Position numbers and translations under genes: made by a program
Source of the DNA: Scenedesmus sp. ARA3
Taxonomy: Eukaryota > Chlorophyta > Chlorophyceae > Sphaeropleales > Scenedesmaceae
Assembly: GCA_004335835.1 (NCBI GenBank)
Contig: RWJK01001390.1
Location: 80,498-144,497, forward strand
DNA length: 64,000 nt
Direction: 5' to 3'
Shown here: positions 6,073 to 57,800 of the stretch, piece after piece
Position numbering within the stretch: the first letter of the stretch is position 1
How the letters are laid out: every line of letters starts with the position of its first letter
Notes under the pieces: model-generated
What the model was told of the DNA's origin: nothing
Database searches by the model: none
Seen by the model: only the letters and a program-made list of their open reading frames with translations

Positions 6073-9000
6073 ATGGGCATGCACCTTCGGCAGCGCCTGC
6101 AGAGGCGTATCACGCACAGGATCCAATCAATCAAAGCCCTCATTCACTTTGTAATGGCTTTCTTTTCCAGCTACAGGCTGGCGGAGTTTCTGCCGCTCAC
6201 GCCACTGTTGGCAGTCTTGGTGCTGCTGAGCTGCTTTCCTGACTGGTGAGTGCTGCTGAGCTTGCCCTGAGCCGGGCCTACGTGAGCAAGGACAGCAACG
6301 AACAAACGGTGGAAATCATACACATGTGCGTCTTGGTCTCGTCTTTGCTGCCTGCATGTCTAAGACGTGCACAAAATTTGCTGTGCACACTGTCCCACAA
6401 ACTGCTGGTGTACACCTCCCATTGACATGTCAGCATGCTGCACGGTGCGGTGACGCAGCATGCCACATGCCTAAGCGTGACACTGCACTGCAATGCAGGG
6501 TACTCGAAAAAGCCGACCAGGGAGCCGAATGGATGCTGTATGTGCTGCTGGGTGAGCAAAGGCGGCATGGCAGGACTCTGGAGCAACTGCTGCCTTTCAC
6601 TGTCAACGAAGCCGTTCATGGCATGCTGGCAGCGGTTTTATAGAAGATGTAGAAGATCATAGGCCTTCCAGCAGACGTTGCATTGATGTCGCACACTGTA
6701 CGGGCCAGCAAAAGGCAGCAGCTGAGAAACATGCGCGTAACTGTCGTGTGTGGTGCAGGTTTTAAGCGCGCAGAGCTGCGTGACAACACCACAGGCCAGC
6801 CAACAGGCCGATCATGCCTGTACTCCGTTGCAGGTGAGGGCGCGGATGCACAGCTGCTCATTGCTGTTTCAAATGAATGTACAATGCGGTGCAGCCTAGA
6901 CCTGACACGCCAGGCCCACTAGGACACATGGTACTTACTGACTTTTTCAGCACGACACATGATAGCTGCCTACGCAGTCCAACAACACCAGCAAAGCGGG
7001 AAGCGGAAGCTGCACCTCGCCTCCAGATGCCCACTTTACCTCACCTTGCGCTGATACAAAAAAGTTCAACCCCTTATGTTGTGCCCTGTGGCAGGTGCGC
7101 TTGCCCGGGACTTCAGCCTGCCTGACACGCGTCTTGGAAGACATGCAGCTGCCGAAACATTCTGGCAGATTTCACTTGACTTTGTTTGTGTGTTTTGATC
7201 TTGGTGTGTGGCAGGTGCGCTGGACCCGGACTTCAGCCTGCCTGACACAAGGCTGCTGGCGGTGCCGCGCAGCGAGGCCGACCGTGAGCATGCCTTCCCC
7301 AGCAAGCAGGCCGCAAGCTGGGGCAACGCCACCTTCCTGGCGCTGTGCATGAAGGTGGCCTACGAGGTGAGCGCATCAGGCCTGTCAGCTAACAGCTGTA
7401 CTTCGCTGTGTGAGCAGAAGCATGCTGCAGCAGTGCCATCGAGTAAACACAGCACACCGTCTGTGAGTCGCATGCGCCCCAAGGTTGAAAAATGATAGGC
7501 AGTAGCTCATGCCAGTGCATTGTGTAACTGCGCCTGCATCATGGCTTTCATGCGCGCACATCGTAACAGGCTTGACACAAACAGCATCCTGTGTCAGTCT
7601 ATCTGCGCTGCTGGGTTGTGCCTTGCAGGACTGGGCGGTCGTGCGCGACGTCGTCAACCACGAGTGGCGCGTGCAGGGCGATGACGCAGCCAGTCGGGAC
7701 CGCACCTACCTGCGGCCGCGCTTTGTCAAGGGGTGCTCCTTCTACTTCATGCAGCCAGCAGGTGTGCAACATACTACACAGCAGGCTTCCTAGAAGCACT
7801 TCTCGCCCAAGCCACGCGAGAAGCAGCAGTGGCAGCAGAGAGCATGTATTCTGGTTGTTGCGCTGCTGCAAGCGGACCTGTTGCTGACTGCCACGTGAGC
7901 CAGCTGCTGTGCTGACTCACACGCCTCACCGTATGCACAACCACTGTCATTGCTGTCCTTTTGCAGGCACTGAGAGCAGCGAGGAGCTGTCACACATCCA
8001 CCTGGACTCAGATGCCTGCCTCATCGCTGTGGAACGGCCCTGCGCAGCAGGTGACCAGCCGGGGGCGGTTGGAGAGGGTGCTGCGCTGGTGCTGGCGTTC
8101 AGGGGCACTGAGCCACTGGAGCTGTCTGACTTCCAGAGTGACTTTGATGCAGTTCCTGAAGCAGGTGAGACACAGCTAATGACTTGTTTGATGCCACCTT
8201 ACTGTGGTTGATATGTGTTAGGCAGGTGATGGCGCTCTGGCCCCTGCGCCAACATACATACAGGGTGGTGTTTGTGAGATGTAGTGTAGCTCAGCGTACC
8301 TGGCTGCTAGTACAAGGCAGGTAGGCCTCTCCACTTGTGTGATGCCGGCACACTTGCGAGTCTGCTACTGTTTAAACCTAATCAGGTGCTTTGATTGTGC
8401 TTTATTGTGCTTCGCTTGTGCTGGCATGCTTGCCTGCAGGCGACTGGGGCAGCTTGCACCCTGGCTTCCTGCTGGCGCTAGGGCTGGACCCAAACCTGGA
8501 CCCCTACCACCAGACGCTGACAACATACACAGCACTGACAGCGGTGAGGTGGCAGCTGCACGGCTGAGCTGGTGTACATTGGCAGCTGCTGCTGCGCAGG
8601 CTGTGCTGGGCACTATGCCAGGCACCTTGGGTTAGCAGTGTGTTTGAAGCAGGAAGCGAGTCTGAAGCAGCTCCCAGTGAACAGCACCTGTGCGATGTCC
8701 TGGTTTGAAACTCACTGTGCCTTTGTATTCTTGACTGCCTTTAATGTGCTGCACTGCACGCTTCCCTGGCGCCCTTGCGTGCCTGCACAAACCCTGCAGG
8801 AGGCTGCGGCTGCTGAAGTCATTGCTGGGCGTGCGGCAACACCATACGAGGTGAGCAGGCTGACCTCAGCAGTTCCCGCTCTGCTGGTGCTGCTGCGGCA
8901 AGCGCCTGCAACCAGTGCTGGCACTACCATAAACTAGTTAACATCAAGCATCATTGTGCCGCACCAGCACCAACGATGCTCTGATAGTGCCCATCCCAGG

Positions 9001-54800: not shown

Positions 54801-57800
54801 GAGCTGTGCCAGTTTTGCAGTTGCTCTGCCGCTTTGGTGCAGCAGCAGGGCCTGACATGTGTTTGACGCCTCGCGCAGCAGCAGCGTGATTTGTACAGGT
54901 GTGCGTGGCTTGCAGTTGGCTTGTTGCCACACCATGCAGCAGGCTAGCAACAGATATGATGTGATGCTGGCACAGCTCCAAGCAACCGGATACACATCAC
55001 TAAGCAACGAGGTGGTATGGGTGATAATGGTGCTGATACAGTGCACATCTCCTGTTCTGCTGCTCTTGCAGGGCGTACATCAACAGCACTGACGTGTCAG
55101 AGATCTTGAGCGGCCGCCGCCAGGCGCTGGCAGGCATTGATGTGCTGCGCAAGATCTGCAACCATCCAGACCTGCTGGAACGTGCTGCAGCCCAGGCTAA
55201 CACAGACTATGGCGAGCCCAGCAGGTGAATGACAACAGAAGTACCTGTCTGGTTTGTGGAGTGCGTGCGTGTGTGCATGTTCCTTCTTGTGCCTGGCCAG
55301 CCTCTTCTGCTGCAGGTCCAGGCATGTTTGCAACTGCAAACGCCTGCACGAGCAGCATTGCTCAAGGCAGCGTGTTCTGGTGCTAACCCAGCAAGCTGGT
55401 AGCGCAGCATGCACAGCGCACCCACGAGGCGGTACACCACAGTGCTGTTGGCATACGTCCCTCCGGCCGGCATGCTGATGATTGTATGTGCTGCCGCCGT
55501 CTTTCCCAGTGGACATATGTCTCATGACTTGACATCTTGCTGCTGGCTGCTGCCATGCTGTGTTTGTTATGCACTCCTTGCAGGTCTGGCAAGCTGCAGG
55601 TGCTGGCCAAGGTGCTGGCCGCCTGGCACGCGGAGCGCCACAAGGTGCTGCTGTTCACGCAGACGCAGCAGATGCTGGACATCCTGGAGAAGCTTGCGGC
55701 AGCAGCCGGCTACAGCTACCACCGCATGGACGGCAGTACGCCCATTGCGCAGCGTGGGAGGCTGATGGACGACTTCAACGGCGACCCTGACAGGTGTGCA
55801 CGCATTGATTCTGAATAAGAATTGTAGCTGCGTGGCTGTCAGGTATCAATGCTGAACAGAAGACATCCGCATGCATGGCGCAGCGAGGCTGGGCGGCGCA
55901 AGCTGGGCTTGTAAGGCAGCTGACCCAGGTGCTGCTGCTGCTTCCACTGCTCTGGCTCTTGTTGCCTGTACAGGTTCCTGTTCCTGCTGACTACCAAGGT
56001 TGGTGGGCTGGGTGTGAACCTGACTGGGGCCAACAGGGTGCTCATCTACGACCCAGACTGGAACCCAAGGTGGGTGCAGCGGCAGCATGCCATGGCATGT
56101 TGCAAGCCACGGAGTGATTGTGCAGTGCATGTAATGCCTTCGCACATATCGTGTAACCGATGATGCCTGTACTCAGCAACCCCTGTTGTCACAGCATTTG
56201 TGCTGCACTGGTGTGTGAGGCCGTCACAGCTCTACTGGACACCACCCTCAAGTCACACGGCATGCACTTGGTTGCACCACCCCCATCCCCTCCTCCTGTG
56301 CTGCTGCTGCCGTCGTTGCTTGTGCGTTGCAGCACTGACAGCCAGGCGCGTGAGCGCGCGTGGCGCATCGGTCAGGGCCGGCCCGTGACCATCTACCGGC
56401 TCATCACCAGCGGCACCATTGAGGAGAAGGTCTACCACAGACAGGTGCGTTGCTTCAACATGTGTTGGGTAGGGTTCATACAAAGCTGCGCTAGCTGTGT
56501 TATCCAGTGCATTGCTATATGTGAGGGGAGTGCGCGATCTACAGTCAGCTGGTGTCCGTTGTTGATCATTACAACAGAGACTGTGAGTCAATGTTTTGTG
56601 AATGTCTGCCTGCTGGTGCCGTGACTGGCGCTGCTATTGTGACATCTGCCCCATGCAGCAGGTGTGCACGTGTGAACAACAATTGCGTTCTCACGTTAGG
56701 ATGCAATCAACCGAGCGCTGTTTGGTTGTTCTGCTTTATTTGTCCTCCTGCCGCCTTGTCACCTGCTGCAACAGATCTACAAGTCCTTCCTCACCAACAA
56801 GGTGCTGCAGGACCCCCGCCAGCGCCGCTTCTTCGCCTCAAAAGACATCAGTGACCTCTTCACCCTTAGTGACGAGTATGGAGCCGGCTCAAAAAGCATC
56901 GCAGCAGCAGCAGCAGCACGCGGCGCTGGCGCTGGCCATGCTGCTGCTGGCGCGACAGAGACTGGGCGCATCTTCTCTGATGTTGTGGGTGAGCAGCTGC
57001 TGGCGCCAGTGCAGCAGCAGCAGCAGCAGCAGCGCCAGCTCGGCAGTAGTCTTGGTGGCGGCAGCAAGGTGCGAAAGTTTGGCCGGCAGCAGCAACAGCA
57101 GGCTAAGGACACCTCAGTGCCGCCAGCTGCAGCTGGTGCAGGCAACGGCAGTATCGCTGCGCAGTACGGTGTTGTTGCTGCTGCAGCAGCGGCAGCTGGT
57201 GATGCTGCAGGCGGCAGCACTGCTGGTGCTGCTGATGATGAGGCCAGTGTGCTGCGTGACTTGTTTGAGGGCACTGGCATAAAGAGCCTCATCGATCACA
57301 GCAGCATAGAAGGCGCCAACAGTGCAGAAGCAGGCGCAAACACCGATGATGCTTTCGCAGCCAAGGTGGCAGCAGATGCAGCAGAGGCGCTGCGGCGAAG
57401 CAGCAGAGCATGCCAATCTGCTGCGGTGCATGTGCCAACATGGACAGGACGGCATGGCGCAGCCGGCATGGCAGCAGCAGCAGCAGCAGCCAGGGGCAAT
57501 GCAGGCAACAGCAGGGGCGCAGCTGCTGCTGGGGGCGGCAGCAGCCGCAGCAGCCCAGCTGTACCTGGTGGGAACAGCAGCGCAGGACGCAGCAGATTCG
57601 GCCAGGTGCGTAATCCTCTGCTGCTGGATGCTCCACCGCTGTTTCCAACAGCTGGTGGTGCAGCAGCAGCAGCAGCAGCAGGAGGAGGCAGTTCCAGGGA
57701 GGCATCTCCTGCAAGAGCATCTGTTGCTGCTGTGCCAGATCCTGCACCCCCAGCTGCTGGCCAAACTGAAGATGCAGCTGCCGCAGATGCTGCAGCAGGT

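Follow-up and report, generated by a model that had tools for sequence, protein, structure and literature searches.

The stretch considered here comprises 64,000 nucleotides (the window) of contig RWJK01001390.1 from the green alga Scenedesmus sp. ARA3, and carries among others a lipase gene, a gene for a secreted protein, a PsbP-domain gene, a SUV3-like gene and a CSB gene. The introns of these genes contain copies of the adjoining exon edges, either of an acceptor site with the exon start behind it or of an exon end with its donor site. A first-pass annotation of the window had claimed such copies for all five genes, and direct repeats are present at every place it named. The copies, together with the edge assigned to the exon itself (the true edge), are as follows; in splice motifs the slash marks the junction.

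7087..7128, plus strand: acceptor-edge copy in an intron of the lipase gene; true edge 7207-7248, with the acceptor before 7215
11238..11307, plus strand: donor-edge copy that has lost its GT; true edge 11121-11190, with the donor after 11190, assigned by open frame only
15548..15587, plus strand: acceptor-edge copy in the secreted-protein gene, with AG/GC; true edge 15670-15709, assigned by open frame only
25386..25397, plus strand: decayed acceptor-edge copy in the PsbP-domain gene, 12 bases of exon match, 127 bases from the next copy
25503..25561, plus strand: acceptor-edge copy in the PsbP-domain gene, 58/59 identical, 127 bases from the true acceptor, which lies before 25640
25964..26025, plus strand: donor-edge copy in the PsbP-domain gene at 214 bases; true donor after 25807
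26289..26343, plus strand: acceptor-edge copy 1 of a further PsbP-domain exon; true acceptor before 26551
26410..26495, plus strand: acceptor-edge copy 2 of the same exon, at 137 bases
32735..32823, minus strand: donor edge of the SUV3-like gene with its tandem copy, a 44-base unit matching over its full length
33370..33420, minus strand: acceptor-edge copy 2 of the SUV3 VAVLDEVQM exon, acceptor 33412; true acceptor 33274
33504..33554, minus strand: acceptor-edge copy 1 of the same exon, acceptor at 33546
52501..53036, plus strand: five acceptor-edge copies in the CSB gene, acceptors at 52524, 52642, 52743, 52841 and 52941; true acceptor 53041
54868..54918, plus strand: donor-edge copy in the CSB gene; true donor after 54760 (splice points 54761/54899, 138 bases)

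The sequence sampled amounts to 254 kb of an 87.3-Mb assembly of 1,567 contigs, and consists of the window and 19 further 10-kb stretches (labelled L002, L003 and so on to L020), three from the contig of the window and 16 from other contigs. An ungapped repeat finder, working lag by lag, returned 143 overlapping segments in 39 clusters, and 0 segments in the control, which was one first-order Markov resample per sequence. Filtered BLAST of the same 254 kb gave 54 direct repeat pairs and 0 inverted pairs. The copies thus exceed what random sequence would provide, and the pattern extends beyond the window.

A locus was curated where the copy spans a splice site, which leaves 21 loci (edges) out of the 39 clusters. 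Nine are acceptor and 12 are donor edges, with 61 splice sites in all, 40 of them extra. The window contributes nine edges and the remaining 190 kb contribute 12, of which eight come from the 160 kb on other contigs; at least one edge occurs in six of the 19 further stretches and in four of the 16 from other contigs. The 18 clusters left out are nine with spacings below 80 bases, including the 44-base SUV3 donor edge, eight taken as coding repeats from spacings in multiples of three, as judged by frame and not by homology (at 41.8-43.2 kb and 45.5-46.1 kb of the window, in L016, two in L018 and three in L020), and one in L014, where an open frame ends, that was assigned to no edge. Pairs found by gapped search outside the clusters enter no count (L015 3732/3916, 4356/4542, L020 1455/1775 and L020 5822/6236). 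Homology supports the choice of the true copy at eight of the 21 edges, and an open frame with splice motifs supports it at 13; the motif searches demanded most of the splice dinucleotides, which biases the retention of AG at acceptors upward. Pfam searches with eight assembled fragments recovered SNF2, Lipase_3, Raptor_N and UCH, each scoring over its cut-off, in four and no family in the other four, and the loci checked in this way outside the window were Raptor (L002b) and the UCH protease (L003). Fourteen introns were mapped, all in the CSB and PsbP-domain genes; the mapping of one further CSB intron failed.

One array lies in the CSB gene, where successive splice sites are spaced by 118, 101, 98, 100 and 100 bases. 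The SNF2 motif runs on into the true exon, which gives a single alignment to RAD26 (E 8.8e-65) and also aligns to the Tetradesmus obliquus protein P0001. A 164-aa piece of the CSB protein is 99% identical to P0001, and the alga is probably a member of the Scenedesmaceae close to Tetradesmus. The exon peptide is matched again, separately, at 52521, 52639, 52838 and 52938, which are the copies. Two types of flank alternate among these copies, and most of the exon halves are nearly identical. The open frame of P0003 (transcript GHUV01018544) begins just inside the copy-bearing CSB exon, as though the preceding intron had been kept.

The PsbP-domain gene has splice points at 25386/25513/25640 (127 and 127 bases), 25808/26022 (214 bases) and 26294/26414/26551 (120 and 137 bases). 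Its name is taken from the Pfam annotation of a relative, P0124, the gene's own fragment having matched no Pfam family. The 281-aa protein P0121, derived from public contigs of at most 1,059 bases, matches the gene with 100% identity across 93% of the query and shows no residue difference in the mapped exon pairs. It maps to six exons with exactly the true junctions, and its additional matches, at 25510, 25911 and 26345, fall on copies. Because the gene spans 24434-27192 (2.8 kb) and the contigs are no longer than 1,059 bases, P0121 probably stems from spliced RNA, and since it joins the true junctions the five copies would therefore have been removed with the introns.

On the minus strand, the true exon of the SUV3-like gene was identified by homology (E 3.8e-24), and its acceptor copies are spaced by 134 bases (33546/33412) and 138 bases (33412/33274). 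The SUV3 protein of Scenedesmus sp. NREL 46B-D3 (P0143) has VRLQ between RVE and VAVLDE, at the site of the copy-bearing intron of about 570 bases seen here; either a shrunken intron or a slip in the gene model could explain the VRLQ. At the lipase edge (7087/7207) the spacing is 120 bases with 39/42 identical, the exon being assigned by open frame; the Lipase_3 match comes from an open frame that lies some 1.8 kb further downstream and is assumed to be part of the same gene. The donor edge at 11191/11308 has a spacing of 117 bases, and the secreted-protein edge at 15548/15670 (labelled 15557) one of 122 bases.

Given this assignment of the true copy, all 21 edges have the same layout: the copies of an acceptor edge are found upstream of the true exon, those of a donor edge downstream of it, and the true exon and its protein therefore stay intact. 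Among the 40 adjacent spacings, 32 fall at 90-144 bases, one is 170 bases and seven are 214-301 bases. A wider scan of pairs, which omitted L020, L013 and 41-47 kb of the window, placed 47 of 98 spacings at 90-149 bases and none at 80-89 or 150-169 bases. Multiples of three account for 13 of the 40 spacings, the share expected by chance, and the copies are therefore presumably not read as protein. Tandem exon duplication, or a set of mutually exclusive exons, was rejected on the same figure and because the matches cover one exon edge only. The 14 mapped introns range from 125 to 771 bases, and copies occur in four of them, namely the three longest (460, 743 and 771 bases) and one of 311 bases; with the copy spacings subtracted these would measure 173-272 bases, the other ten mapped introns being 125-330 bases long.

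The similarity of the copies resides mostly on the exon side. When the first 40 bases of the exon side are compared with bases 9-58 of the intron side, against a baseline of 0.49 for unrelated introns, the 40 pairs of true edge and copy are 0.87 identical in the exon half and 0.59 in the intron half, the exon half being higher in 39 of 40. For the 33 pairs of copy and copy the corresponding values are 0.80 and 0.59 (exon half higher in 29 of 33). In the four arrays with at least four copies the two halves correlate at Spearman values of only -0.17 to 0.20. This patchwork of halves is what short-tract gene conversion would leave, although it is not proof of it. For the nearest pair of each locus an ungapped match reaches 90% of the spacing in 0 of 21 cases, which tells against plain tandem duplication, the mode of origin put forward in the first-pass annotation. 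The intron-side match of the nearest pair is within the expectation for a splice consensus at 15 of 21 loci (p>0.02) or at 10 of 21 (p>0.05). When gaps are allowed, the spacers within one array are often related (SUV3, L011b, L018a, L018b and L002b are examples), the null being simple shuffles, so that runs of CTG may inflate some of the scores. It follows from this relatedness that whole units were probably duplicated, at least in those arrays.

Differences between true edges and copies are distributed over codon positions as 39/38/95, that is, 55% at third positions where half would be expected; the counts are as expected of a constrained exon and a freely decaying copy. These counts, like those between copies given below, skip pairs with an exon match shorter than 20 bases and the edge at 15557, for which no frame was set. 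They supersede a frame-free test of mismatches modulo three (0.56 against 0.50 by permutation, p 0.0004, with non-independent pairs). A codon-usage model was set aside because the copies themselves look coding.

The copies retain much of the splice signal, as scored with a small matrix built on this genome. Median acceptor scores are 8.6 for copies, 9.7 for true sites and -1.0 for all AG inside mapped introns, and the corresponding donor scores are 7.1, 11.2 and, for all GT, -2.4. Measured against the AG and GT sites of the 14 mapped introns, 14 of the 22 copied acceptors and 15 of the 18 copied donors exceed the 95th percentile, which makes it plausible, as had been proposed, that the introns carry arrays of decoy splice sites. 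The GT is lost in three donor copies (11308, 3431 in L005 and 2098 in L011). It had also been stated that, among the five genes, AG/GT is kept at every junction except that of the secreted-protein gene. The AG/GC of that gene is as described, but CAG/GT is not a general centre of the copies: AG/GT is absent from three of nine acceptor edges (AG/AA in L002b, AG/GG in L018a and AG/GC at 15557), as well as from an uncurated edge in L015 (AG/GC). A role of CAG/GT as an organiser is not supported either. GT begins six of nine copied acceptor edges against three of 11 mapped exon starts that have no copies (one-sided Fisher p 0.09), a possible mild excess, and AG ends 10 of 12 copied donor edges against nine of 12 mapped donors that have no copies, which is no excess. 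The proposal that introns are gained or lengthened in this way is supported in its second part, the three longest mapped introns being among those with copies, and not in its first. None of the 14 mapped introns exceeds the 99th percentile of the null (11) for the signature of intron birth, in which donor and acceptor regions derive from one duplication; two copy-bearing PsbP introns, with scores of 10 and 9, lie above the 95th percentile (7) through a shared CTGCAG.

The reading that we favour, to which we would give about an even chance of being right, is that local duplications straddling splice sites lengthen the introns, that conversion keeps the exon-like halves alike and that the copies are mostly unused decoys. 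Small local duplications, mostly of 90-145 bases, would span a splice site, thereby copying the exon edge and extending the intron, and selection would remove other placements such that the protein-sparing class accumulates. Short-tract gene conversion with the true exon, which selection would anchor, may then keep the exon-like halves recognisable as the intron halves drift, and the spacing of the copies would be the fossil of the duplicated unit.

A number of observations weigh against this interpretation. No conversion tract is proven, and differences in rate could mimic conversion. In the gapped test the spacers are unrelated at PsbP1, PsbP2, lipase, L002c, L018d, L008 and L005, and in L011b a stretch that is mostly spacer is 56/56 identical and thus better kept than the exon half. 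Differences between copies fall at codon positions as 31/31/74, with 54% at third positions where one third would be expected (p 3.5e-7, the pairs not being independent). Time shared in the true exon could account for this excess, as could conversion or a constraint that acts on the copies themselves; the excess slightly lowers our confidence in duplication with conversion and slightly raises that in selection on the copies. The limits of the spacing are not strict, as with 44 bases in SUV3 and 184 bases in L015, and the favoured reading does not explain them. A test of random placement at the edges of the two mapped genes gave moderate results only (probability product 0.012), with one of five loci missing the 4-base margin. 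Finally, no young intron-only duplication of 90-145 bases was recognised among the 22 non-coding-like clusters with spacings of at least 80 bases (the 21 edges and L014), which counts against duplication being ongoing, because an ongoing process should yield them.

Several other explanations have to be considered. Plain tandem duplication with neutral decay would dispense with conversion, the intron halves merely changing faster, and it would suit the related flanks of the CSB dimers, L018a and L018c, the full 44-base SUV3 unit and the codon-position counts between true edges and copies. We consider it unlikely, given that PsbP1, L002b and L002a combine exon matches of 97-100% with intron halves about as dissimilar as unrelated introns, that the similarities of the two halves are uncorrelated and that differences between copies show the third-position excess. 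A match that breaks off abruptly at either end and never reaches 90% of the spacing, with an intron-side similarity mostly or often within the splice consensus, would instead fit patch copying, in which the repair of breaks in introns copies a nearby exon edge together with filler, and an intron flank is never shared. Patch copying is nevertheless rather improbable, since array spacers are often related, the filler of two tested loci has no other source in the assembly and repair alone provides no preference for splice sites. An origin as transposons or introners was rejected for the three stretches tested, the CSB array and two spacers, each of which matches only itself in the genome.

It is also conceivable that selection keeps the copies as functional splice sites, alternative or regulatory, in the form of poison sites or recursive steps, the latter being available at the six of nine acceptor edges with AG/GT. 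The closeness of copied to true acceptor scores and the third-position excess between copies speak for such a role; the out-of-frame spacings, the stops, indels and lost donors within copies and the skipping of all five copies in the single transcript-derived protein found make it a small chance. A comparably small chance attaches to a more speculative model of copying that is aware of the splice junction, in which exon edges would be written out anew into the introns at intervals of about 120 bases, and the copy would often stop at the junction as if taken from RNA or from spliceosome-marked pre-mRNA, such that longer introns would largely be decayed copies of their own edges. Misassembly of diverged alleles or read ends would account for spacings similar to read lengths, and matching exon halves beside unrelated intron halves are what two joined alleles should give. 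It is very improbable in view of the substitutions, indels and stops that separate copies from true edges, and of arrays of up to six with varying spacing and, in CSB, two flank types. Hardly any weight is given to the birth of new introns from exon duplications bearing AGGT, as envisaged by Rogers. The AG at donor edges, the GT at acceptor edges and the two PsbP introns above the 95th percentile are in its favour, but no mapped intron passes the 99th, L002b, L018a and 15557 are without AG/GT, and an exon-final AG is equally common at mapped donors without copies.

Some further repeats were noted. In L014 (7624-8155) the end of an open frame with a few downstream bases occurs three times, at spacings of 148 and 280 bases, and may be a donor edge. 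A further acceptor edge at L015 3732-3971 (AG/GC), with its copy 184 bases upstream, was seen by gapped search only and is uncounted; the exon there resembles that of an AAA ATPase. Long repeats at 41795-43178 and 44349-46097 of the window, perhaps on the minus strand, have spacings that are all multiples of three and look like protein repeats. A 66-base unit (22 codons) is present three times at 27923-28132, a pattern that resembles leucine-rich repeats, and a 37-base unit containing TTCAGGTGCTC is present in six copies at 28751-28977. Runs of GCA/CAG are frequent in the window, for example at 62186-62271, 61051-61107 and 769-815.

Related phenomena have been described elsewhere. In the potato RdRp gene, an existing intron-exon structure was duplicated and a new intron arose (Ma et al. 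2016, PMC4974935). The tandem genomic duplication model of intron gain (Rogers 1989) likewise invokes local tandem exon or intron-exon pieces with splice signals. In contrast to both, existing introns are lengthened here, at many loci, and the similarity is mostly on the exon side. Introners (PMC9860276) are likewise a recurrent, insertion-like intron change known from algae, but they form dispersed families, whereas the CSB array and two tested spacers are unique in the genome; the main text of that paper mentions Scenedesmus 0 times and Tetradesmus 0 times. For Scenedesmus acutus, PMC12899622 reports that introns are retained and exons skipped in the phytochelatin synthase gene; words beginning with repeat or duplicat occur 0 times in that paper. 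Searches of open-access literature, judged by titles and the beginnings of abstracts (subscription papers being outside this scope), brought up no report of such copies in Scenedesmaceae. Several tandem AGGT copies inside one intron are known in one case, which concerns a 24-bp exonic unit in two genes; here the copies form a recurrent class with a spacing of about 120 bases. Recursive splicing removes an intron through the stepwise use of ratchet points, and AG/GT copies inside introns could serve in such a stepwise manner, although the mapped introns are shorter than 800 bases and not all of the copies are AG/GT.

The growth of introns and the choice among near-identical splice sites have mostly been studied through rare or engineered cases. 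The loci described here offer a natural series in ordinary genes, with the same acceptor and exon start occurring two to six times per intron. Should the density outside the window (12 edges in 190 kb, or eight in 160 kb) be representative, about 4,400-5,500 such edges would be present genome-wide, an extrapolation from a small sample, and numbers of that order would suffice to measure from RNA reads which of the copies is preferred in splicing, at what rate decoys decay and whether conversion with the true exon sustains them.

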